Assembly: GCA_019721035.1 (NCBI GenBank)
Contig: JAHEAA010000019.1
Location: forward strand, 1 to 37,385
Source of the DNA: Candidatus Sysuiplasma acidicola
GTDB lineage: Archaea > Thermoplasmatota > Thermoplasmata > Sysuiplasmatales > Sysuiplasmataceae
Direction of reading: 5' to 3'
DNA length: 37,385 bases
Shown: positions 4,734-23,049 of the stretch, piece by piece
Layout: the number at the start of each line of letters is the position of its first letter
How positions within the stretch are numbered: the first letter of the stretch is position 1
The notes under the pieces: model-generated
Database searches by the model: none
Seen by the model: only the letters and a program-made list of their open reading frames with translations
Told to the model about the DNA's origin: nothing
Translations under genes and position numbers: made by a program

Positions 4734-6362
4734 TCAGGGGCGGCGGATCAGGCGATCTCTGCTGTCGTGTTCCAGTAATTCCGGGGCCCTGTCTTCATAT
4801 GGGCCATACCCTCCACCGCCTGCTGTTTTTATCGTCACGACATCGCCCGAAGCGAGATCAATCGAACATTTTGTAGGTATCCTTTTCACCTGCCCGTCAT
4901 GTTCCACATAGACCTCCGTTCTGCTTCCTTCCCCTCCACCCTTGAGACCCGGGGGCGAATGCCACTCCCTTTCGGCCATTACTGTGAAGCGTGTATCATC
5001 ACTCCTTACTCTGTAGGAACGTTCGATGCCTGCCCCTCCTCTCCATTTCCCGGGACCGCCGCTGCCTTCTCTGAACTGATACCGCACGATAGACAGCGGA
5101 TAGTAAAGCTCCACAAGCTCAGCGGGTGTGTTGAGTGTGTTGGTCATGTTGCAGTGTATGCCGTCTGCGCCATCCATGCCACTGGAGGCGCCCATGCCAA
5201 CCGCATTTGTCTCGTAGAATGACCATGTTCTGCCACGGCAGATGCCTCCGATCATGATGTTGTTCATCGACCCGCCGCAGGCAGCCGGTATCCTGTCCGG
5301 GACAAGGCCGTAGAATGCTCTCAGCAGAAGATCGGCGTTCCTCATGGTGGTCTCCGTGTTTCCGGCAGAGACCGGGTAGGGGAAAGTGGGGTTCAGCAGT
5401 GTGCCTTGCGGCACGTTGACAGTTATCGGCCTGAAGCATCCGTCATTCATCATTATATCCGGATCTGTGATGCACTTCAGAACGTAGTAAACGGCCGAGA
5501 GAGTGACACCGTATACTGCGTTGATCGGGGCCCTGACCTGCTTTGAGGTGCCAGTGTAGTCGATTGCAATTGTGTCATTGTGCCTTGTTACGCTCACACG
5601 CATAGGGATGTCATCCATGCCTGGCATTTCCATACAATCCGCTGCCTCTCCCGCCGCACCAGGGAAAGAGCTGATCGCAAGACGCGTCATCCTTTCGGAA
5701 TAGTCGAGCGCTGATTCTGACGCCGATTCGAACGATCGAATGCCGTATTCAGACACCATGGACATGATCCTTTTCTCACCGAGAATGTTTGCCGCAATCT
5801 GGGCACGCGCGTCGCCCTTTCTCTGGTAAGGATCCCTCGAATTGGAGGACAGCAGACTCAGCACATCACCGTTTATCCTCCCCATGTTTACGAGTTTTAC
5901 CGGGTCAATTATCATGCCTTCCTGGAACAGGTCGGTTGCGTCCGGAGGAATGCTGCCCGGGACCTTGCCGCCGACATCGCTGTGATGCGCCTTGTTTGCG
6001 GCGTAGGCGACTATCCTGCCTTTGCTGAAAACCGGGCTGATCAGCGTAATATCGTTGAGGTGTGTTCCGGAGAGATACGGGTTATTCACCATGACCATGT
6101 CTCCACTGAAAAGCTCCATGCCCTCTCTTTCCACGTATTCAAGCGTCTTCTTCAGTCCCCACGGCAGCGAGCCGAGATGGACAGGTATGTGTTCTGCCTG
6201 TGCCAGAAGCCGTCCATGGGGATCCATTATTGCACAGGAATGGTCCATCCTGTCCTTGATGTTCGGCGAATAGGCCGAATTCCGCAGTGCTGTGCCCATC
6301 TCCTCGCTGCAGAAGGTGAGTGAACTCCTGATAATCTCGGAAACAATCGGATTCTCTCTCAT
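4734..6362 (-). CDS. hyuB: Hydantoinase/oxoprolinase subunit B
   Basis: A 542-residue member of the hydantoinase B/oxoprolinase family (PF02538). With HyuA it hydrolyses cyclic amides such as 5-oxoproline or N-methylhydantoin, at ATP cost. Family landmarks include the N-terminal SSLTFCSEEMGTALRNSAYS, DRMDHSCAI, the MVNNPYLSGTHLNDITLI block, the HHSDVGG motif with likely metal-binding histidines, NGDVLSLLSSNSRDP, and the glycine-rich end (GGPGKWRGGAG, PGLKGGGEGS, TAGGGGYG). Length is normal. The ATG overlaps the hyuA stop by 4 nt (ATGA), so the two are translationally coupled. The neighbouring divergent pcp gene favours 5-oxoproline as substrate, but acetophenone, acetone or hydantoin-type substrates occur in this family. 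Confidence 0.92.
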   Translation of the reverse strand: MRENPIVSEIIRSSLTFCSEEMGTALRNSAYSPNIKDRMDHSCAIMDPHGRLLAQAEHIPVHLGSLPWGLKKTLEYVEREGMELFSGDMVMVNNPYLSGTHLNDITLISPVFSKGRIVAYAANKAHHSDVGGKVPGSIPPDATDLFQEGMIIDPVKLVNMGRINGDVLSLLSSNSRDPYQRKGDARAQIAANILGEKRIMSMVSEYGIRSFESASESALDYSERMTRLAISSFPGAAGEAADCMEMPGMDDIPMRVSVTRHNDTIAIDYTGTSKQVRAPINAVYGVTLSAVYYVLKCITDPDIMMNDGCFRPITVNVPQGTLLNPTFPYPVSAGNTETTMRNADLLLRAFYGLVPDRIPAACGGSMNNIMIGGICRGRTWSFYETNAVGMGASSGMDGADGIHCNMTNTLNTPAELVELYYPLSIVRYQFREGSGGPGKWRGGAGIERSYRVRSDDTRFTVMAEREWHSPPGLKGGGEGSRTEVYVEHDGQVKRIPTKCSIDLASGDVVTIKTAGGGGYGPYEDRAPELLEHDSRDRLIRRP

Positions 6363-8452
6363 TTCCGTCGCCTCATTATCAGGTTGCCGTAGCCGTCGAC
6401 CCCGACCTTCCAGTTTCCCGGTATCAGTGTTGTTGAATCATACTGCTCTATGACAGCCGGCCCGGAGATTGAGTTGCCGCTCCTCAGTTCTTCTCTCGAA
6501 TATATTACTGATAGCCTCTCTCTGTCCGCATACAGCACATTTCTTTCGCCGACACGTGCCCTGGGGCTTACAGCTGCGCTCCCCATCCCTGTCTTGTTTC
6601 TGCGCACTTTGGGTAAAACGATAACGGACGTCAGGTTCAGCGAAACAATATTTACTGGATCTGCAGGCGAGGCGTAGCCGTAAACCTGCCTGTGTTTCCT
6701 GCTGAAATATGATAAGAGTGTGGAGATGTCCAATGCCCTTCCTGAAGGCTTGCGGGCGGGCTTGAATCGCACGGGAATGGTAAGCTCCCAGCCCTGGTTA
6801 GAGTATTGAACACTGGCAGTTCTGTGAAAGAGAACCCTGCTTCCCTTCCACCCCTCTGCTTCTGCCTCCTCCACCGCCTTCTTCTCGAGCTCGCCGTAAA
6901 AAGCGGCAAGGTCCCGACCATTCATTTCATCTGCCAATTTCATTACGGCCTTCTTGTACTCCCTCTTCAGATCCGCCGTAATCAGTCCGTAGGCAGAGAA
7001 CAGGCCGGGGGATGGCGGTATGATAACAGACTCCACGCCGAGCGATTGTGCAACCTCGGCAGCGTGGAGAGGGCCTGCGCCACCGAACGCTATCAGTTCA
7101 AAACGCCTTGGATCATGTCCCCTCTCGACGCTGACTATACGCATGATCTTTGACATCTGATTGTTCGCTATCGCAATGATGCCCAGCGCCGCGTTCCCGA
7201 CATCGAGCGAAAGTGCGCTGGCAATTTTTCTTTTCACAGCCTTCTCCGCCCCTGATCTGCTGATGGGCATTGTGCCTGAAAGCAGGCTTTTCTGATTGAG
7301 CCTGCCTGCGACTACATTTGCGTCGGTGACAGTCGGCTCTGTTCCTCCCTTCCCGTAGCAGACTGGTCCGGGAAACGAGCCCGCGCTTGTCGGGCCCACA
7401 CGGAGGACGCCACCTGCATCAATCCATGCAATCGAACCGCCGCCCGAGCTTGTTTCGGCGAGGTCTATGAAAGGGAAACGGACGGGATAACCGCTGCCCC
7501 GGATGGAGCGGCCGCTGTGTGTTTTACCTGCCGCCTCAAACTCCTGTGAATATTCTACCTGTCCATTATGGATCATGCCGGCCTTGGCCGTTGTTCCACC
7601 CATGTCGAACGTCAGTAGGTTCCTCTTCGAGAGAAGGTCGCTCATGTGCAGTGCAGAAACGACTCCGCTAGCAGGGCCCGATTCAATGATTGATACAGGC
7701 ACGTCGATGGCACCCTTTACCGATGTTGCGCCGCCGTCCGACTGCATTATGTAAACAGGAACAGGGCCGAATTCGTCCTTCACAAGTGAACGGAGTCTGC
7801 TGAGGTATGTAGAAACAATCGGGCAGAGGAGGGCGTTAACGGCCGCGGTGCTAGTGCGCTCATACTCCTTTGGAAGAGGGTCTATGTCCGAAGCGCATAT
7901 GACAGGTATATCGAGCTCGCCTGAAAGGATAGAGCACGCCGTATGTTCATTCTCCTGGTTCAGATAGGCGTTTATGAAGGAGATGCAGACCGCCTGCACC
8001 TTTTCATCCCTCATTCTGCCTGCCAGGGCATCGATTTCTCTTCTGTCGACAGGCATCTCCACTTTCCCGCTGCCATCTGTCCTTTCATTCACTGTGAAAC
8101 GGAGATGCCGTGGCACAACAGGCGGCGGTCTTTCAACCCTCAGGTTGTAAAGCTCCGATCTCTTCTGCCTGCCAATTTCCAGAACATCCCTGAATCCCTC
8201 CGTTGTTATCAGCGCAATCTTCGGCCAGCCGGTCCTGGTGAGAAGTGCATTTGTTGCAACGGTGGTGGAATGAAACAGAACGCTGAGTTTCCTGCCGTCA
8301 GCCCTCATCTGAGTAAGGCCGCTCATCACGCCCTCCTCAGGTTTCACAGAACTGGGCAGTTTGATGAATGAGAAATCATGAGACTCTTCATCATAGGCGA
8401 CGATGTCTGTGAAAGTCCCGCCTATGTCGATGCCTATCAGACAACCGGCCAC
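6359..8452 (-). CDS. hyuA: Hydantoinase/oxoprolinase subunit A
   Basis: A 697-residue member of the hydantoinase A/oxoprolinase family (PF05378 then PF01968), an actin/Hsp70-fold ATPase subunit. Landmarks are the N-terminal phosphate loop LIGIDIGGTFTDIVAYD (about residues 5-21), HSTTVATNALL (61-71), the ESGPASGVVSA block (257-267), a second phosphate loop LLTFDMGGTTAKAG (279-292), and VERGHDPRRFELIAFGGAGPLHA further on. The start is GTG with no ribosome binding site. A TATA box about 26 nt upstream indicates a leaderless message. HyuA is first in the operon and is coupled to hyuB. A divergent pcp gene 247 nt away supports a role in 5-oxoproline opening; this is inference. Confidence 0.92.
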   Translation of the reverse strand: MAGCLIGIDIGGTFTDIVAYDEESHDFSFIKLPSSVKPEEGVMSGLTQMRADGRKLSVLFHSTTVATNALLTRTGWPKIALITTEGFRDVLEIGRQKRSELYNLRVERPPPVVPRHLRFTVNERTDGSGKVEMPVDRREIDALAGRMRDEKVQAVCISFINAYLNQENEHTACSILSGELDIPVICASDIDPLPKEYERTSTAAVNALLCPIVSTYLSRLRSLVKDEFGPVPVYIMQSDGGATSVKGAIDVPVSIIESGPASGVVSALHMSDLLSKRNLLTFDMGGTTAKAGMIHNGQVEYSQEFEAAGKTHSGRSIRGSGYPVRFPFIDLAETSSGGGSIAWIDAGGVLRVGPTSAGSFPGPVCYGKGGTEPTVTDANVVAGRLNQKSLLSGTMPISRSGAEKAVKRKIASALSLDVGNAALGIIAIANNQMSKIMRIVSVERGHDPRRFELIAFGGAGPLHAAEVAQSLGVESVIIPPSPGLFSAYGLITADLKREYKKAVMKLADEMNGRDLAAFYGELEKKAVEEAEAEGWKGSRVLFHRTASVQYSNQGWELTIPVRFKPARKPSGRALDISTLLSYFSRKHRQVYGYASPADPVNIVSLNLTSVIVLPKVRRNKTGMGSAAVSPRARVGERNVLYADRERLSVIYSREELRSGNSISGPAVIEQYDSTTLIPGNWKVGVDGYGNLIMRRRK

Positions 8453-8457
8453 AAAAT

Positions 8458-8467
8458 AGAATATTCT
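8458..8467. promoter_or_regulatory. 10-bp palindrome at the presumed hyuA transcription start
   Basis: AGAATATTCT is a perfect palindrome between the TATA box and the GTG start of hyuA, where a repressor would block initiation. A 10-bp palindrome of A/T-rich composition can arise by chance, so confidence is low. Confidence 0.25.
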
Positions 8468-8473
8468 GTCTCA

Positions 8474-8481
8474 TTATTAAA
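8474..8481 (-). promoter_or_regulatory. TATA box of hyuAB
   Basis: TTTAATAA on the minus strand, centred about 26 nt from the hyuA GTG at 8452. Transcription would begin at or next to the start codon. Confidence 0.5.
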
Positions 8482-8670
8482 CAGTCGGGGAAACGCGTGA
8501 GTGCGACAAAAGTGCTGTGTAACACAGTCCTTCAGTTTGGCGACAGGCTTCTCCTGACAGTATAATTTTCCTCAGGAAGCAGCCTGCAGGCTAATCGCGC
8601 ATCACAGTGTCAGGCAGGCAACAAATCAACTGAACAGTCGATGTTGCGCTCTGAAATCGGTGCACAACTG

Positions 8671-8678
8671 CTATATCG
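8671..8678 (+). promoter_or_regulatory. TATA box of pcp
   Basis: CTATATCG centred 26 nt before the ATG at 8700, implying a leaderless transcript. It shares the 247-nt divergent region with the hyuAB promoter. Confidence 0.45.
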
Positions 8679-8699
8679 GCCGAGCAATTAGCGGTCTGC

Positions 8700-9323
8700 A
8701 TGCCGCGATCCCCTGTTGTTCTGTTCGGTTTCGAACCATTCCTGCAGTTCAGGGAAAACCCATCTGAGAAGATTGTCCGGGCGCTGAATGGAACCTCAAT
8801 TGGAGGAAGGAAGATCATCGGCAGGATACTTCCGGTCGATTATGGCTCCATTGAAAAAAGGATCATGTCTGAAATCGACAGGAGCAGACCGGCAGCAGTT
8901 ATTGGCACCGGCCTCGCTGCAGGCAGGTCCAATCTCAGCATCGAGAAGGTGGCAATCAATTACAAATTCTCAGAGGAACCTGACAACAGGGGAAAGTCTG
9001 CGAACGGCGGTCCAATTGACAGAAATGCTCCAGACGGCATATTCTCCAATATGCATCCTGAGGAAGCAGCCGGGCGACTGAACCGGCTTGGCATACCGGC
9101 ATCCGTCAGCCTCTCTGCAGGCGCATATCTGTGCAACTTCGCGATGTTCATTATGGCAAGGGAGGCGTCAAGACGGGGATTTGTCAGCGGTTTCGTTCAT
9201 CTGCCCTGCGACGAGGAGATGGCTTCCAAGACCTCATACAGGAGATTCCCTTTCATGAGTCTCGATGCAATGAAGAGCGGGGTAGAATCTGTAATAGAAC
9301 ATGCTCTGGCAATACGGACGTAA
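8700..9323 (+). CDS. pcp: Pyroglutamyl-peptidase I
   Basis: A 207-residue cysteine peptidase of family C15, which removes N-terminal pyroglutamate (5-oxoproline) from peptides in the cytoplasm. The catalytic triad is readable: E82 in NLSIEKVAIN, C145 in SAGAYLCN, and H167 in GFVHLP. The N-terminal VVLFGFEPF and the NPSEKIV motif are also family-typical, and length is normal. The start is ATG with a TATA box 26 nt upstream and no ribosome binding site. It is divergently arranged with hyuAB, whose product class can hydrolyse the 5-oxoproline that Pcp releases, so the two operons plausibly form one salvage route. It converges on the MarR gene. Confidence 0.95.
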   Translation: MPRSPVVLFGFEPFLQFRENPSEKIVRALNGTSIGGRKIIGRILPVDYGSIEKRIMSEIDRSRPAAVIGTGLAAGRSNLSIEKVAINYKFSEEPDNRGKSANGGPIDRNAPDGIFSNMHPEEAAGRLNRLGIPASVSLSAGAYLCNFAMFIMAREASRRGFVSGFVHLPCDEEMASKTSYRRFPFMSLDAMKSGVESVIEHALAIRT

Positions 9324-16781: not shown

Positions 16782-17879
16782 TCAGCGTACTCTGAATTTT
16801 TCCATTTTTTCCCAGTCGAATAATACGCCATGCCCGGGATCTCCTGGCGGAAAAGCAATTCCCCCGCTGATGGAAAACTGCTTCTTCAGCAGGCCGGAAT
16901 CCCTGAGATTCGATCCTGGAAGATGTTCCAGGAAAAGGGCACTATCGCTTGCGCAGAGGGTGTGTATGGCAATTTCTTCGCAAAAGTGAGGTGCAACCTG
17001 TATATTCATTGATGCGGCAAGGCCCGCGAGCCTCATCCATTCTGTTACACCTCCGGCCCTGATGACGTCTATCTGCGACACATCGGCACATTTTTTCTTC
17101 AGAAATTCCTCCATTTCATATCTGTTGTAAAGACTCTCTCCGCCCGCAATCATTAAATCAAGCCGGTCGCTGAGAAACGCATAACCGTCCAGCAGGTCGG
17201 ATTCAATGGGTTCCTCCAGCCAGTAGACACCCATCTTCTGCAGTTCCTTCCCGTGCGACAGTGCTTCCTTCAGCGTCCACTTTCTGTTCGCATCCACCAT
17301 TAGAAGAGCGTCTGGTCCGATGACAGATCTCACCGCTTCAAGGCGCTTCAGATCCTCCCTGAAATCCTCTCTTCCCACCTTCACCTTAAACGAACCGTAC
17401 CCCTCCTTTCTGTAGTTGTCTATATCGCGGCACAGTTCCTCAGTCGTCATATTGAGGTCAATGGCACTCCTGTACGTTCTGATGCTTGCTTCCTCCCCGC
17501 CGCCGAGGAACCGGAATAGCGGCAGTCCTCTTTCCCTGGATAGCGCATCGTAGAACGAGATATCAAGCGCCGCATATGCCAGCCTTCCCAAACCTTCCAG
17601 TCCAAAAGCATAGGTGTAGTCCCACACCTTCTTCCTCAGCATCTTAGGAGATGTGATTTCATCCCGTATTACGGCCGGGGCAAGATAATCGTTAATCAGA
17701 TGGAGTATGGCGGTTCCGCCCGATCCCTGCGTATACGTCCATCCGACACCCTCGATACCGTTGTCGAAAACAATTCTTGTTGTAATGTACTCATATTCCC
17801 TGAAAACATGAGTCGCATTCTGCTGAACGTTACGACTCGGTATCCTGTAGAGGGACGCAGAAATGTCTTTTGCATGCAT
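16782..17879 (-). CDS. Enolase-superfamily enzyme (mandelate racemase/acid-sugar dehydratase group)
   Basis: A 365-residue member of the mandelate racemase/muconate lactonizing family, with the capping domain first and the barrel after. Readable active-site elements are the K-x-K motif (SFKVKVG); three metal ligands in LLMVDANRKW, YWLEEPIES and IAGGES; and an Asp-His pair in QIDVIRAGGVTEW and VAPHF. The His base places it nearer the mandelate racemase/sugar-acid dehydratase subgroup than the muconate or dipeptide-epimerase subgroups. The open frame runs 136 codons further upstream, but that part has no family resemblance. The ATG at 17879 has a TATA box about 24 nt upstream, so a leaderless start there is preferred. 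Substrate not determinable. Confidence 0.9.
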   Translation of the reverse strand: MHAKDISASLYRIPSRNVQQNATHVFREYEYITTRIVFDNGIEGVGWTYTQGSGGTAILHLINDYLAPAVIRDEITSPKMLRKKVWDYTYAFGLEGLGRLAYAALDISFYDALSRERGLPLFRFLGGGEEASIRTYRSAIDLNMTTEELCRDIDNYRKEGYGSFKVKVGREDFREDLKRLEAVRSVIGPDALLMVDANRKWTLKEALSHGKELQKMGVYWLEEPIESDLLDGYAFLSDRLDLMIAGGESLYNRYEMEEFLKKKCADVSQIDVIRAGGVTEWMRLAGLAASMNIQVAPHFCEEIAIHTLCASDSALFLEHLPGSNLRDSGLLKKQFSISGGIAFPPGDPGHGVLFDWEKMEKFRVR

Positions 17880-17898
17880 AATTATACAATCTGGCGAA

Positions 17899-17906
17899 GA
17901 TAAATA
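17899..17906 (-). promoter_or_regulatory. TATA box of the enolase-superfamily gene
   Basis: TATTTATC on the minus strand, about 24 nt before the ATG at 17879. It supports a leaderless start at that ATG over the longer upstream reading. Confidence 0.5.
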
Positions 17907-18286
17907 CCATTTACGAATAAGGCGGCTCATCGATGGTAGTGGGCGCCTGTGCAGGTGAAAACGATCAGGTGCTGTTCCCGCGTCATTGGCTCCGGGCCAC
18001 GTGCGAACGCATGGCCGTCCGTTGAGAGACGACTTCAATATGCTTAGGAACGCCTTCGATGCGCGCACCTGTTCTGTCGGCACTCGATATGTACCGCCTT
18101 TCCATGCTGCCGAAAGTGTGATGAGAATGCGTGGAGTGGAATGTGTCGATTCCATGCCACATCTGCCGGAAAGATTCACGCCCGGCTCTGAGCGTGCCGC
18201 CACTGAGTTCATAGGCCAACCGTCTCCAATCGGTTTTGACGGCAAACGCACAGGCCCTAGGGCGGGCGCGCAACAGAAAAACGGCA
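17907..18286. other. Intergenic stretch, nothing recognised
   Basis: Between the enolase-family promoter and the end of livF. Several overlapping reading frames cross it on both strands, but none has family resemblance or promoter support. Confidence 0.35.
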
Positions 18287-19003
18287 TTACAATCTGAAGA
18301 ACGTTTTCGATATTGTCTCGTTCATAAGCGCTTCGTCTCTTCTGCCAAGGAAACTGATGTTGCCCATTTCCATCAGCACTACCCTGTCGGCGAGTTCAGA
18401 AAAACCCGCATTCTGTTCGGCGAGCAGGATTGTCCTGCCTGAAGCTTTTATGAGCTTTATGGACTCAATAATTTTTTTCACGAAAGCAGGCGAAAGTCCA
18501 AGAGACGGTTCATCCAGGAGCAGGAATTGTGAATCTGATGCGACGACCATGGCGAAGGAGAGAAATTTTCTCTGGCCGCCAGAAAGGGATGCCGCCTTCT
18601 TTCTTTCGAATGGTTTGAGATCGCCGAAAATATCGAATGCCTCCCTTATCCTGTTCCGTGCATCGGCCGGCCTCATCCTGTGGGACGCAACCTCCAGATT
18701 TTCCCTTACGGTCAGCGTGGGTATGATGCTCTGTTCTCCTATGAAAATAAGTCCTCTGGACGTTCTTGTATGTGGGGGAAGATCGGTTATGTCTTCGCCA
18801 TTCAGCATTATCTTCCCTGACATGGGTCTTATGAGCCCTATTATTGTTTTGAGAAGAGTCGTTTTTCCCGCGCCATTGAGCGAAAGAAGAAGAAGTGTTT
18901 CTTTGTCCTCCACTGTAAGATTGATGCCGTGGATAATTTCAAGATCGCCGTAGCCTGCCCTTAATTCCTTTATTTCAAGCGTAATTTTCACCCAGATATA
19001 CAT
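18287..19003 (-). CDS. livF: Branched-chain amino acid-type ABC importer, ATPase LivF
   Basis: A 238-residue ATPase of the LivF group, powering import with LivG at the cytoplasmic face. Signature LSGGQ (AASLSGGQRKF) and Walker B (FLLLDEPSLGLSP) are intact. The H-loop reads LLAEQNA, with Glu at the His position as is usual in LivF proteins. The Walker A region reads LLSLNGAGKTT: the first Gly of the P-loop is replaced by Ser, unlike the usual G-R-N-G-A-G-K-T. The ATG at 19003 is preceded at 5 nt by GAGGT inside the end of livG. The genes overlap by 29 nt, indicating translational coupling. It is the last gene of the livHMGF operon. Confidence 0.92.
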   Translation of the reverse strand: MYIWVKITLEIKELRAGYGDLEIIHGINLTVEDKETLLLLSLNGAGKTTLLKTIIGLIRPMSGKIMLNGEDITDLPPHTRTSRGLIFIGEQSIIPTLTVRENLEVASHRMRPADARNRIREAFDIFGDLKPFERKKAASLSGGQRKFLSFAMVVASDSQFLLLDEPSLGLSPAFVKKIIESIKLIKASGRTILLAEQNAGFSELADRVVLMEMGNISFLGRRDEALMNETISKTFFRL

Positions 19004-19691
19004 TCAGGACCTCGGGATTTTTCACCACGCTCGCATAGTCTCCCTGCGCTATGATTCTTCCATCGCTGAAGGCTGTTACAATCCCTCCAAGTTTACTGAC
19101 GAGGCTCATTATGTGTCCGATGTATATTACCGACACACCCCTGTCATTAATCTTCCTCACAAGATCTGCCACATTATCCAGCTCCGATTTTGAAAGGCCT
19201 GCTCCAAGCTCATCGATGAAAAGGTAGCGAGGGCTGCCTGCAAGGGCACGTGCGAGGTCGAGCAGCTTCATCTGAGAGCTTGTGAGTTCCCGTGCACGTT
19301 TGTATTTTTTATCGTAAAGGCCGACGAGTTCCAGCATCTGGTCAGACAATTCCATTGACTCTTTTTTCCCCATGCCTGAGCCGAAATAAGCGCCAACAAG
19401 CACGTTCTCAAAAACGGTGAGATCTGCGAATGGTTTCGGTATCTGAAACGTACGGTTTACGCCCAGCCTCGCTCTCTTGTAAGGCTGTTTTCCTGAAATC
19501 TCACTGCTGTCGAGTGTGATGGAGCCCTTATCTGCAGTGTATACTCCTGTCATGATGTTGACAAAGGTGGTCTTTCCCGCGCCGTTGGGGCCGATGATGA
19601 CATGCTTTTCCTTCTCTCCGAACTGCATGCTCACATCGTCCAGGACCTTCATTTCACCGAATGATTTGCAAACATTGGACGCAACCAGCAT
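18975..19691 (-). CDS. livG: Branched-chain amino acid-type ABC importer, ATPase LivG
   Basis: A 238-residue ATPase of the LivG group. Walker A (IIGPNGAGKTT), the family motif GVNRTFQIPKPFADLTVFENV with the Q-loop, Walker B (YLFIDELGAGLS) and the H-loop His (YIGHIMSLV) are present. Two positions are unusual: the signature is LTSSQ instead of LSxGQ, and the Pro after the catalytic Glu is Leu. Because signature and Walker A come from opposite subunits, the altered LivG signature would pair with the altered LivF Walker A, leaving the other site canonical. The gene follows livM by 1 nt and overlaps livF. Confidence 0.92.
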   Translation of the reverse strand: MLVASNVCKSFGEMKVLDDVSMQFGEKEKHVIIGPNGAGKTTFVNIMTGVYTADKGSITLDSSEISGKQPYKRARLGVNRTFQIPKPFADLTVFENVLVGAYFGSGMGKKESMELSDQMLELVGLYDKKYKRARELTSSQMKLLDLARALAGSPRYLFIDELGAGLSKSELDNVADLVRKINDRGVSVIYIGHIMSLVSKLGGIVTAFSDGRIIAQGDYASVVKNPEVLNVYLGENYA

Positions 19692-19692
19692 G

Positions 19693-20625
19693 TTATATCA
19701 CCTCTACTCCCGACCGTTTCCTGATTATGTCTATCAGGCCGTTCGGGATGAACAGAACGGTGAGCACAATGAGAATTCCAAAGGCTGCCTGAAAGTACAG
19801 CGGATAGCTGAGGCCTATGAAGTAATAGAGGGAAAACAGAATTACCGTGCCCAGGACAGGTCCTGTGATTGTGCCCCGTCCACCCACTATTACGAAAACC
19901 AGTGCAAAGAGCGTGAAGGTTATGTCGAACACCGCCTGAGGATAGAAGAAAGAAATGTACCAGCCATAGAGGGAGCCCGCTACACCCGCGAAAGCTGCAG
20001 TTATCCACCAGGCAATATTGCGGTCAAGAGAGACGTTGACGCCGGATGCAGAAGCGCTGAGCACATCATTCTTAATGGCCTGAAGGGAGAGGCCGAGCTT
20101 GCTTCGCTTGATCCGGTAGCTGACGAGTAACGCGAGCACGAGCACAGCAACGGCAATGTAATACGTCTCGTCAGGCGAGTAAACCTGCGGAAGCGATAAA
20201 CCAAGCGGGCCTCCAGTATAGTGCGCGACGGCAGGTGTGGAATTGGACATGAAATAGTATACGGCTTCAAAGGCCCCGAGCGTTCCAATGGAGAAAAAAA
20301 CGCCACGCAGCCGGAAGAGCGGAAGGAACACAAGACTCAGCAGAACCGACAGGCCCGGACCAATGAGCAGAGAAATGGGAATGCCGTAGCCGAACTTCAC
20401 CCCCATGCCGAAACCGTATGCGCCCATGGCAAAAAAGACCGCAAAACCGAACGGCAGGTATCCGGTATAGCCATAAATTATATTCAGCGAGGATGCTAAT
20501 ATCAGATATATCACGAGTGTCATGAAAAACGCCTGATTGACATAAACCAGCGGCCCTGCAATCGCCAGCGCTACAATGAAAACAATCGTTCCGAGCAGCA
20601 TCAGGAATTTTTGATCAAGCTTCAC
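19693..20625 (-). CDS. livM: Branched-chain amino acid-type ABC importer, permease LivM
   Basis: A 310-residue membrane permease of the LivM group (PF02653) with eight or more hydrophobic segments. The family block ASSLNIIYGYTGYLPFGFAVFFAMGAY lies near residues 42-68. The cytoplasmic coupling region (LGLSLQAIKNDVLSASASGVNV) matches the usual 'G-R-A-L-R-A-I-R-E-N-E-x-A-A-x-x-x-G' region in position, followed by GGRGTITGPVLGTVI, a hallmark near the C-terminus. It overlaps livH by 11 nt and precedes livG by 1 nt, so it belongs to one tightly packed operon. Confidence 0.92.
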   Translation of the reverse strand: MKLDQKFLMLLGTIVFIVALAIAGPLVYVNQAFFMTLVIYLILASSLNIIYGYTGYLPFGFAVFFAMGAYGFGMGVKFGYGIPISLLIGPGLSVLLSLVFLPLFRLRGVFFSIGTLGAFEAVYYFMSNSTPAVAHYTGGPLGLSLPQVYSPDETYYIAVAVLVLALLVSYRIKRSKLGLSLQAIKNDVLSASASGVNVSLDRNIAWWITAAFAGVAGSLYGWYISFFYPQAVFDITFTLFALVFVIVGGRGTITGPVLGTVILFSLYYFIGLSYPLYFQAAFGILIVLTVLFIPNGLIDIIRKRSGVEVI

Positions 20626-21499
20626 GGAGAGATCTCCCGAAAATTCCCTGCGGTCTTATTACCATGACGACAACAAGGAAAGTGAACACTATGACAAAGC
20701 TCCAGGACGCGGCATAGACATCACTTATGCTTATGATCACGCCGTAGAGAAGGCCTCCCAGTATGGCACCCAGCGGGTTTCCGAGAGCGCCTATTATGAT
20801 TATTGTGAATGCAATGATGGTTATCAGTGCTCCCTCGTAAGGGACAATGGCGCCGAAAACCCAGGGGGACATGATGCCCGCGATACCTGTTATGGCAACA
20901 CTGATGGAAAATGCCAGCAGCGCAATCCGCTTGCTGTTGATTCCAAGGGACTCGGTTATGTCTTCGCTGTACATAACGGCCCTCGTGATCTTTCCAATCC
21001 TTGTGACATACAGGTAAAAGAACGTGAGGGCAGAAATGGCGACGGAAATGATGGCGATTACTATGAAGTTAGTGGATGTTGAAAAACCGAAAATGTCTAC
21101 ATGTTTTGAATTCAGTGTGATCAGCGGCAGTGATCTGGGCGTAGTGCCGTAGGCAATTGAAATAATTGCCTCTATACTCATTGAAATGCCGAAGAATGCA
21201 ATCAGCGAATTGATTTCCCTGTCATCAGATCTGTTGACCCGGGGAATCAGAACGGTGTAAAGGGCATATCCTCCGACAAAGAATGCGGGGGCAACGATGA
21301 GGAACGACATCCAGAGCGGGACATGGTACAACCGCAGCAGGAAAAATGCAAGCAGTCCGCCGAGCATTATGAAATCGCCATGTGCGAGGTTTACTATTTT
21401 CATCGTTCCAAAAACAATGTTTAGCCCGAGAGCCATAAATCCGTAAAATGAGCCCAATAATAATCCTATTACAATGGCAAATAGGAGTAAGGAGATCAC
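20615..21499 (-). CDS. livH: Branched-chain amino acid-type ABC importer, permease LivH
   Basis: A 294-residue membrane permease of the LivH group. The signature ALGLNIVFGTMKIVNLAHGDFIMLGG (about residues 23-48) is canonical. The coupling region reads RIGKITRAVMYSEDITESLGIN, and the C-terminal GALGNPLGAILGGLLYGVI is also typical. The start is GTG with no ribosome binding site. A TATA-like GATTAAAGTA lies about 26 nt upstream, so livHMGF probably has its own leaderless promoter in addition to any readthrough from livK. Confidence 0.92.
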   Translation of the reverse strand: MISLLLFAIVIGLLLGSFYGFMALGLNIVFGTMKIVNLAHGDFIMLGGLLAFFLLRLYHVPLWMSFLIVAPAFFVGGYALYTVLIPRVNRSDDREINSLIAFFGISMSIEAIISIAYGTTPRSLPLITLNSKHVDIFGFSTSTNFIVIAIISVAISALTFFYLYVTRIGKITRAVMYSEDITESLGINSKRIALLAFSISVAITGIAGIMSPWVFGAIVPYEGALITIIAFTIIIIGALGNPLGAILGGLLYGVIISISDVYAASWSFVIVFTFLVVVMVIRPQGIFGRSLREA

Positions 21500-21520
21500 G
21501 TTGACCGATCCTGTTCATGA

Positions 21521-21530
21521 TACTTTAATC
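21521..21530 (-). promoter_or_regulatory. TATA-like element of livHMGF
   Basis: GATTAAAGTA on the minus strand, centred about 26 nt before the GTG start of livH. It lies in the 224-nt gap that separates livK from the other transporter genes. Confidence 0.4.
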
Positions 21531-21723
21531 TTTGTCGGATTTTATTTTCCGCTTTCCAACATCTGGATTTATCGGTCGAAATAATTTCATTATGCCTGAT
21601 ATAAATTGCTCTCGAGCTCTAAACAACAGTGCGCTATTTTGACGAATTTCATGCGTTGAAGGACAGGCTGGTCACAGCGGAAGCGTTGAAAGTAAAAGTG
21701 AAAATGGTTTGGGTTGAAAATCA

Positions 21724-23049
21724 TCATGGTGCAGGATAAATCGCAGTTCCGGTTGCCATTGAAGCAGGATAAACGAGCCTTACGCTGAATGTTCCTCCGG
21801 TGCCTGGAATAATCTGCGCTATTGGCGGTGTTTCACCAATCTGTGCGCCGGTCGTGGTATTGATTGTGAATGTGCCCATCAGCGTATCCAGTTTTCCTGA
21901 GAAAGTGTTCATCGCAGCCCTAAGACTGGGCGTGGTCATGCTCGTGGATGTTTCGAGTGCCTTTTGAAGTATCAGTCCTGCATTGTATCCCGCAAGGCTC
22001 AGGAAGTTGACCGGGATCGACGGATAGGTGCTGTTCCACTCGGTCTCGAAAGCGGACTGAGTGAGACCATAATTTACGTTCTGGTAAGCGAATTCAGGCG
22101 GGAAGCTGAATGTGTAGGTATAGCTCATGTTTGCCCCTACCGAACTCACAAAGTCCGAAAACAGCTGGCCCGGGAATACTGTAAATGTATAGTTAAAGTG
22201 ATAGCCACCTGATGCAATCCCGTTCAGGAAAGGTATGTCGTTGGTCGGAAATCCATACTCGACGACGGCCTGTGGATGGGTTGCCTCAATGGCAGCAAGT
22301 TGCGAAGAAAACGATGTTGTACTTGTAGGGTAACCCTGATCATATACAGGGGTAACGCCGTGTGCGGTCAGAACAGAGACCAGGGCAGTGGCAAGGGGTT
22401 GAGTGAAATCGTTTTCGGCATAGAGTACGGCCACCTTTGTTATATTCATTGAGAGCAGGTCGTATGGTGCGTTGTACATATATGAAGGCGTGAACGGTAT
22501 CGATGTCAGAACGACATACGGGTTCGGGCTCGATGCATTGAAGAAATTGGCAGATGAACCGGTAACATCTATTAGCAACACCTTGTGCGCAAGTGCAACC
22601 GAAACCGCCGGAGCTGTCAGAACTGAGCCGAAATCGGCGACTAGCACATTGACATGGTCTGATGTTATGAGCTGGTCGTAATAAGTTGTGGCCTGCGAAG
22701 CACTGCTGGCATCATCGTAGCTGTATATCTTTATCGGCAGTTTCTTTCCATATTGCGGTACCAGAATGCCGCCGTTTTTATTGACGAGGTGGGCCCAGAG
22801 CGAAAAGCCGTCAAACTCAGAAATAGAAGAGGTTGCAAAACTGCCTGTGCTTGCGTAAAGTATTCCTACCTTGATATCTGAAGGCACGGCTGATGTTTTT
22901 GCCGATGGCCTGGTAATTTCGTAGCCTACAACGGCTCCGATGATAATGATGATGATCACAACGGCGACTATGGCAACAAGGGAATTACTTCTCTTTTTGC
23001 CGCCGGTCGTAGGCACAGACTTATCTCCTGAAACTCCCCCTGCAGTCAT
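21724..23049 (-). CDS. livK: Substrate-binding protein of the Liv-type importer
   Basis: A 441-residue periplasmic-binding-protein-fold receptor (Leu/Ile/Val-binding type, PF13458-like). A basic N-terminus and one hydrophobic helix (about residues 23-45, rich in Ile and Val) anchor it to the outside of the membrane; no lipobox Cys is seen. The receptor begins at DIKVGILYASTGSFATSS and contains LWAHLVNKNGGI, typical of the family start (I-x-x-x-N-x-x-G-G-I). The ligand could be amino acids, short amides or peptides. The start is ATG with a TATA box about 27 nt upstream. It lies first in the liv locus, separated by 224 nt from livH. Confidence 0.92.
   Translation of the reverse strand: MTAGGVSGDKSVPTTGGKKRSNSLVAIVAVVIIIIIIGAVVGYEITRPSAKTSAVPSDIKVGILYASTGSFATSSISEFDGFSLWAHLVNKNGGILVPQYGKKLPIKIYSYDDASSASQATTYYDQLITSDHVNVLVADFGSVLTAPAVSVALAHKVLLIDVTGSSANFFNASSPNPYVVLTSIPFTPSYMYNAPYDLLSMNITKVAVLYAENDFTQPLATALVSVLTAHGVTPVYDQGYPTSTTSFSSQLAAIEATHPQAVVEYGFPTNDIPFLNGIASGGYHFNYTFTVFPGQLFSDFVSSVGANMSYTYTFSFPPEFAYQNVNYGLTQSAFETEWNSTYPSIPVNFLSLAGYNAGLILQKALETSTSMTTPSLRAAMNTFSGKLDTLMGTFTINTTTGAQIGETPPIAQIIPGTGGTFSVRLVYPASMATGTAIYPAP

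Follow-up and report, generated by a model that had tools for sequence, protein, structure and literature searches.

The salvage pathway for pyroglutamyl peptides, an archaeal two-gene enzyme and the PxpABC system are all already in print. Pyroglutamate (5-oxoproline) arises spontaneously in hot acid and is inhibitory to thermoacidophiles; as sole carbon source it supports growth of Sulfolobus acidocaldarius, in extracts of which ATP strongly boosts its degradation (PMC6507225). From these growth and extract data, Saci_0368 and Saci_0369 (505 and 640 amino acids) are predicted to form a two-subunit 5-oxoprolinase, and the Sulfolobaceae candidates are 29–40% identical to eukaryotic 5-oxoprolinases (Vetter et al., 2019; PMC6507225). 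Two later papers take up this prediction: in one the gene pair is without differential regulation under nutrient excess, and in the other it is listed as most upregulated under 1-butanol. In Bordetella, a TRAP uptake system lies beside a eukaryotic-type 5-oxoprolinase (PMC13274462). Annotation at the family level cannot separate 5-oxoprolinases from other lactamases that depend on ATP, hydantoinases included, and recurrent linkage to the pyroglutamyl peptidase gene pcp provides an independent clue to the substrate of the archaeal two-subunit clade.

Here, we consider a locus from an acidophilic archaeon, a Sysuiplasma-related member of the Thermoplasmata, in which a hyuAB pair lies head-to-head with pcp. 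The window, that is the whole stretch of 37,385 nucleotides that was analysed, belongs to a genome (G000) of 1.97 Mb in 35 contigs with a single hyuB. Pcp and HyuAB probably constitute a real pyroglutamate-salvage pair of a known kind with a predicted substrate. The genes and coordinates of the divergent arrangement, as given in the first-pass annotation, were confirmed, with Pfam matches far over cut-off for all three proteins (Table 1). The reading frames of hyuA and hyuB share an ATGA overlap. On the hyuB side, the pair is flanked by a gene of the glyoxalase family and by a 166-aa ORF that matches nothing in Pfam. Beyond pcp follow genes for a MarR protein, an EmrB-like MFS protein, a metallo-beta-lactamase and two MsbA-like ABC half-exporters, then a Liv-type cluster, which includes a gene of the enolase superfamily, and a thermopsin-domain protein. 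The window also encodes a protein with an ice-binding-like domain, which is unexpected for an archaeon of this group.

Table 1. Position, strand and supporting evidence of the features of the window
Feature	Position	Strand	Evidence
hyuB, metal-site (beta) subunit of a predicted ATP-dependent enzyme of 5-oxoprolinase type with two subunits	4734..6362	-	PF02538 E 4.4e-188; metal-ligand positions; Saci_0368 group
hyuA, alpha (ATP-binding) subunit	6359..8452	-	PF05378/PF01968/PF19278; DIGGT, DMGGT, GSFPGP; Saci_0369 group
divergent intergenic region, two separate TATA-like elements	8453..8699		247 nt; G004 aligns at either end
pcp, pyroglutamyl peptidase I (peptidase family C15)	8700..9323	+	PF01470 E 1e-37; PDB relatives; E82, C145, H167
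enolase-superfamily gene, last of the Liv cluster	16782..18287	-	domain match starts at residue 156
Liv-type importer	18287..23049		
thermopsin-domain protein, 1270 aa	24032..27844	+	thermopsin domain at residues 119-389; remainder without Pfam match
protein with ice-binding-like domain, 485 aa	32197..33654	-	PF11999 E 3.8e-71

Pcp matches PF01470 over its full length (residues 6–203; 130.6 bits against a cut-off of 22.7). Its residues E82, C145 and H167, which we take to be the Glu-Cys-His catalytic triad, are the same in all 12 Pcps of the alignment. These residues align to the P. furiosus pyrrolidone carboxyl peptidase (1iof), and the PDB relatives of Pcp are pyrrolidone carboxyl peptidases. 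The protein stays under the NCBIfam equivalog cut-offs, with a best score of 220 against 271 bits. Relatives in the named genome collection were sought with a 7-row alignment as query, the 12-row one being too diverse. Pcp was not found in G001 or G003, in a search without positive control. In G435 (L242), a near relative of S. acidocaldarius, pcp is truncated and contains one in-frame TAG, reflecting either decay or sequencing error.

The assignment of HyuA and HyuB to the hydantoinase/oxoprolinase family is upheld by matches to PF02538, PF05378, PF01968 and PF19278 and by family motifs. HyuA contains DxGGT twice (at residues 9 and 283) and GxxPGP once (at 358), and the two phosphate motifs and the adenosine motif described for caprolactamase are all found in it (PMC8453981). 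In HyuB, D40, H101, D104 and H126 correspond to the CapB metal ligands D41, H99, D102 and H124; the four positions are kept in 67/67 type-2 and 11/11 type-1 HyuB rows, a split that we drew from the tree and that leaves two bacterial rows within type 2. All 67 type-2 rows also share N-I-[KR]-[ED]-R-x-D-x-S beside the first metal ligand, as well as N34, R38, H58 and N335 of the window HyuB, which are absent from CapB, from N-methylhydantoinase (NMHase) and from all 11 type-1 rows. Since the CapB pocket is very hydrophobic (PMC8453981), such conserved polar residues round the HyuB site would fit a charged substrate, for example 5-oxoproline. The nearest solved structures are those of N-methylhydantoinase, CapAB, acetophenone carboxylase and acetone carboxylase. 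The NCBIfam CapA and CapB equivalog models match under cut-off (468 and 244 bits against 1000), and the acetophenone carboxylase cut-offs are likewise missed (66–236 bits against 1250–1500).

Phylogenetically, the window pair groups with the S. acidocaldarius enzyme. In quick maximum-likelihood trees, built without bootstrap, HyuA shares a clade of 18 rows with Saci_0369 and HyuB one of 36 rows with Saci_0368, both with an SH-aLRT of 99; identities are 45.6% and 44.4%, respectively. The HyuA tree comprises 28 rows from 106 hits and 2 references, after removal of duplicates and rows shorter than 600 aa, and the HyuB tree 78 rows from 109 hits and 2 references, with duplicates and rows below 480 aa removed; the split-frame HyuA of G433 and the HyuB of G007, truncated at the end of a contig, are not in the trees. 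HyuAB of G092 lies outside the Saci clade, yet within type 2, and the deep order is uncertain because the reference branches are long. In the S. acidocaldarius genome used here (G434), HyuB and HyuA measure 505 and 640 aa, and HyuB is 62.5 and 65.3% identical to two G427 copies, themselves 79.4% identical to each other; the published values for Saci_0368/0369 and the Saccharolobus solfataricus proteins are 505, 640, 62.3, 64.9 and 79.4 (PMC6507225). G434 (L253) and G427 (L248) also possess a further, distinct type-1 HyuAB pair, with some 35% identity to HyuA of the window, which the accessible part of PMC6507225 does not name as a candidate. A record titled 'Euryarchaeota archaeon isolate CPBay_Spr30G08_79' (L112/L251/L256) groups with the Sulfolobaceae, as does its HyuAB, and the title looks wrong.

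The gap between hyuA and pcp contains two TATA-like elements. On the hyuA side, TTTAATA (coordinate 8481, - strand) begins 29 nt before the GTG start codon; on the pcp side, TATATC (coordinate 8672, + strand) begins 28 nt before the ATG. Such spacing is typical of leaderless archaeal messages. Both elements occur at about the same spacing in G004, and the flanks align to that genome with 82% identity over 102 nt on the pcp side and 74% over 84 nt on the hyuA side, coding starts included. Because both persist in G004 although about 8.5 kb parts the genes there, pcp and hyuA have two separate putative promoters. Of the 247-nt shared promoter region proposed at first, the distance stands, but it reflects adjacency and not one shared element; any co-regulation of the two genes is presumed.

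Co-occurrence was surveyed in 200 or 400 genomes of the class drawn from a larger group. Among the 200, Pcp scored over cut-off in 13, hyuB was present in 63 and both in 11; hyuB thus accompanies pcp in 11/13 genomes, against 52/187 of the others (Fisher p 7e-5, relatedness ignored). The 400-genome draw yielded 41 genomes with Pcp (not 42, G180 with a match under cut-off being excluded), of which 21 have hyuB, 3 PxpA, 0 both enzymes and 17 neither; hyuB and PxpA are both missing from 6 of 19 good-quality pcp-bearing class genomes. In the Sulfolobaceae, the family of G405, hyuB is found in 27/31 genomes and pcp in 11/31, all 11 with hyuB.

Physical linkage is sparse. Five of the 32 genomes with both (G000, G004, G092, G401 and G433) have pcp and hyuAB no more than 10 kb apart, where 0.60 would be expected (P ~2e-4) under random placement with rounded genome sizes and contig ends ignored; these represent three lineages only, for which the probability of at least three is 0.02. 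In the remaining 27 the distance exceeds 10 kb or the genes fall on separate contigs, assembly fragmentation hiding some cases. Among the best 80 of 151 Pcp relatives, hyuA or hyuB was present in the fetched flanks of 2 (the G004 and G401 records), and many contigs of these loci are short, so that absence is weak evidence. The conserved linkage that the first-pass annotation proposed to look for is real in 5/32 genomes of three lineages and fails in the same-genus G005 and G007, which carry both genes unlinked; absence from every relative, which it had named as decisive against the proposal, is not what G004, G092, G401 and G433 display. No earlier report of pcp-hyuAB linkage in archaea was found in open-licence PMC text.

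The linked loci differ in anatomy. The divergent gene order of the window recurs in G092, from another family, with hyuB-hyuA (-), pcp (+) and a glutamyl/glutaminyl-tRNA synthetase-family gene (+). In G004, from the family of the window genome, pcp (-) is followed by a PKD-bearing SBP_bac_5 protein (+), ATPases and permeases of the Opp/Dpp type (-), an unmatched ORF of 310 aa (+) and hyuA-hyuB (+). The Sulfolobaceae G401 and G433 present hyuAB, a divergent Opp-type importer, pcp and a gamma-glutamyltransferase gene. An oligopeptide importer hence lies between pcp and hyuAB in three of the five linked genomes (G004, G401, G433), and a gamma-glutamyltransferase gene flanks pcp in two (G401, G433); a Pfam scan of 20 window ORFs yielded no importer of the Opp/Dpp type. 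Importer proteins of G401 and G433 are 83–88% identical, whereas their permeases share only 25–30% with those of G004, so that recruitment to the two kinds of locus was probably separate. In G433 (L254), hyuA and the gamma-glutamyltransferase gene are each in two frames, again from decay or sequencing error. A 538-aa neighbour divergent from hyuA in G005, considered as a binding protein by its length, is lysyl-tRNA synthetase.

In some relatives, PxpABC is found beside pcp instead. PxpA (PF03746) had no match in G000, in a search whose controls matched in 5/14, in line with the expected absence of pxpABC. PxpA was found in 5/200 class genomes and PxpABC occurs in Thermococci (PMC9258230), hence the system is not purely bacterial, as it had been called. 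Of the three pcp genomes with PxpA, two have the genes linked (0.013 expected): pcp lies beside pxpABC in G019 and G359, both without hyuB. The G359 pcp converges on the gene in pxpC position and directly abuts it; only PxpA is family-matched there, the other two being assigned by size and order. The corresponding coordinates are 7626–11525 in L190 and 3192–6221 in L191. At L190, an alanine-racemase-N gene separates pcp from pxpABC, and two MsbA-like ABC genes follow; such MsbA-like pairs are found near pcp in both the window and G019.

Taken together, these data make it likely that the final two steps in the salvage of pyroglutamyl peptides are encoded at this locus, with HyuAB as predicted 5-oxoprolinase. 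Pcp would cut N-terminal pyroglutamate off peptides, as established for its family, and free 5-oxoproline would come either from Pcp or from glutamate that cyclises spontaneously in hot acid. By the family mechanism, the actin-like site of HyuA would spend ATP to activate 5-oxoproline, the presumed substrate, and the HyuB metal site would open the lactam to glutamate, flux being assumed to run in this direction. HyuAB would represent a two-subunit form within the OPLAH-like, eukaryotic-type family of 5-oxoprolinases. HyuAB probably also takes free pyroglutamate, which forms chemically from glutamate in hot acid, with Pcp as an optional feeder. The far wider occurrence of hyuB compared with pcp suggests that the general substrate is pyroglutamate of chemical origin, to which Pcp would contribute a further supply. 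The core of the first-pass annotation, in which Pcp releases 5-oxoproline for ring opening by HyuAB in place of PxpABC, draws support from the grouping with Saci_0368/0369, linkage in three lineages and the pcp-pxpABC loci of two hyuB-less relatives; its extension to thermopsin and the Liv importer does not. Counting against salvage are the 17/41 pcp-bearing class genomes without either enzyme, the excess of hyuB over pcp, and the action of related enzymes on caprolactam or hydantoins.

This last point raises the question whether HyuAB could be an ATP-dependent hydantoinase or another lactamase with a different natural substrate, placed beside pcp incidentally. The closest structures (N-methylhydantoinase and caprolactamase), the matches to both caprolactamase models under cut-off and the lack of linkage in most genomes would agree with this, but linkage recurs in three lineages and in two of these spans a peptide importer, the four HyuB residues N34, R38, H58 and N335 set type 2 apart from CapB, NMHase and type 1, and no hydantoin racemase or carbamoylase turned up in the Pfam scan of 20 window ORFs; we hold it improbable. 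HyuAB could also be a 5-oxoprolinase for chemically formed pyroglutamate, with an independent Pcp and no dedicated module, which gives HyuAB a role overlapping with that in peptide salvage. The Sulfolobaceae numbers, the 52/187 class genomes with hyuB and without pcp, and the spontaneous formation and inhibitory action of pyroglutamate (PMC6507225) all suit such an arrangement; co-localisation above expectation, three times with an oligopeptide importer in between, weighs against it and renders it possible but rather unlikely.

The idea that the entire 4.7–27.8 kb stretch is one island for proteolysis, import and salvage (thermopsin, Liv, Pcp and HyuAB) appears highly improbable. All its genes are present in the window, and both the Liv-type importer and the thermopsin-like protease do lie downstream, but some 9 and 15 kb beyond pcp, behind MarR, MFS, metallo-beta-lactamase and ABC-exporter genes, with efflux-like and exporter genes thus in between. 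In 117 loci longer than 5 kb (90 with pcp, window and duplicates included), livJ/livH and the thermopsin domain matched no pcp-bearing locus except the window. The two were thus rejected as parts of the module, being near pcp in no relative examined, and the scheme of thermopsin digestion followed by Liv import is not supported, the importers that are linked to pcp being of the Opp/Dpp type. As the domain match of the window enolase-superfamily protein begins well inside the frame (Table 1), its true start is probably internal; the protein resembles sugar-acid dehydratases, under cut-off, a hint that the Liv system may not take amino acids. In G005 (L050 7799–8893), an enolase-superfamily gene lies 3 kb from hyuAB, with L-Ala-D/L-Glu epimerase as best match (238 bits against a cut-off of 500). 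An epimerase link between the two genes was discarded: they are only 24% identical, and that of the window is dehydratase-like.

More tentatively, and with somewhat less confidence than doubt, acidophilic archaea may have repeatedly built compact salvage loci for pyroglutamyl peptides around pcp, with two unrelated 5-oxoprolinases, HyuAB and PxpABC, able to replace each other. An Opp-type importer, joined in Sulfolobaceae by gamma-glutamyltransferase, would have been added on at least two separate occasions. If so, the Opp-type importer would be specific for pyroglutamyl or glutamine-rich peptides. The prediction made for S. acidocaldarius can now be tested by deleting the genes, and three of the genomes named here offer a candidate importer. 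The locus points to how thermoacidophiles cope with pyroglutamate arising spontaneously in their habitat.

Compared with known systems, the window Pcp is an ordinary member of peptidase family C15, with the conserved E, C and H, but belongs to a divergent archaeal branch under the NCBIfam equivalog cut-offs. The prokaryotic 5-oxoprolinase PxpABC is proposed to catalyse the same reaction as HyuAB and adjoins pcp in G019 and G359, but its proteins are unrelated. Eukaryotic-type 5-oxoprolinase (OPLAH/OXP1) is one fused chain, in contrast to the two subunits of the window, the family likeness being taken from published comparison only. Caprolactamase CapAB (6yra) and N-methylhydantoinase (7hk5/9h03) have the protein family and ATP-site motifs in common with HyuAB at 30–36% identity; the pocket residues of both differ, and while CapB agrees at all four metal-ligand positions, N-methylhydantoinase has Q at one of them. 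Closest is Saci_0368/0369 of S. acidocaldarius, an adjacent gene pair sharing clade and motifs with the window HyuAB, but situated away from pcp.
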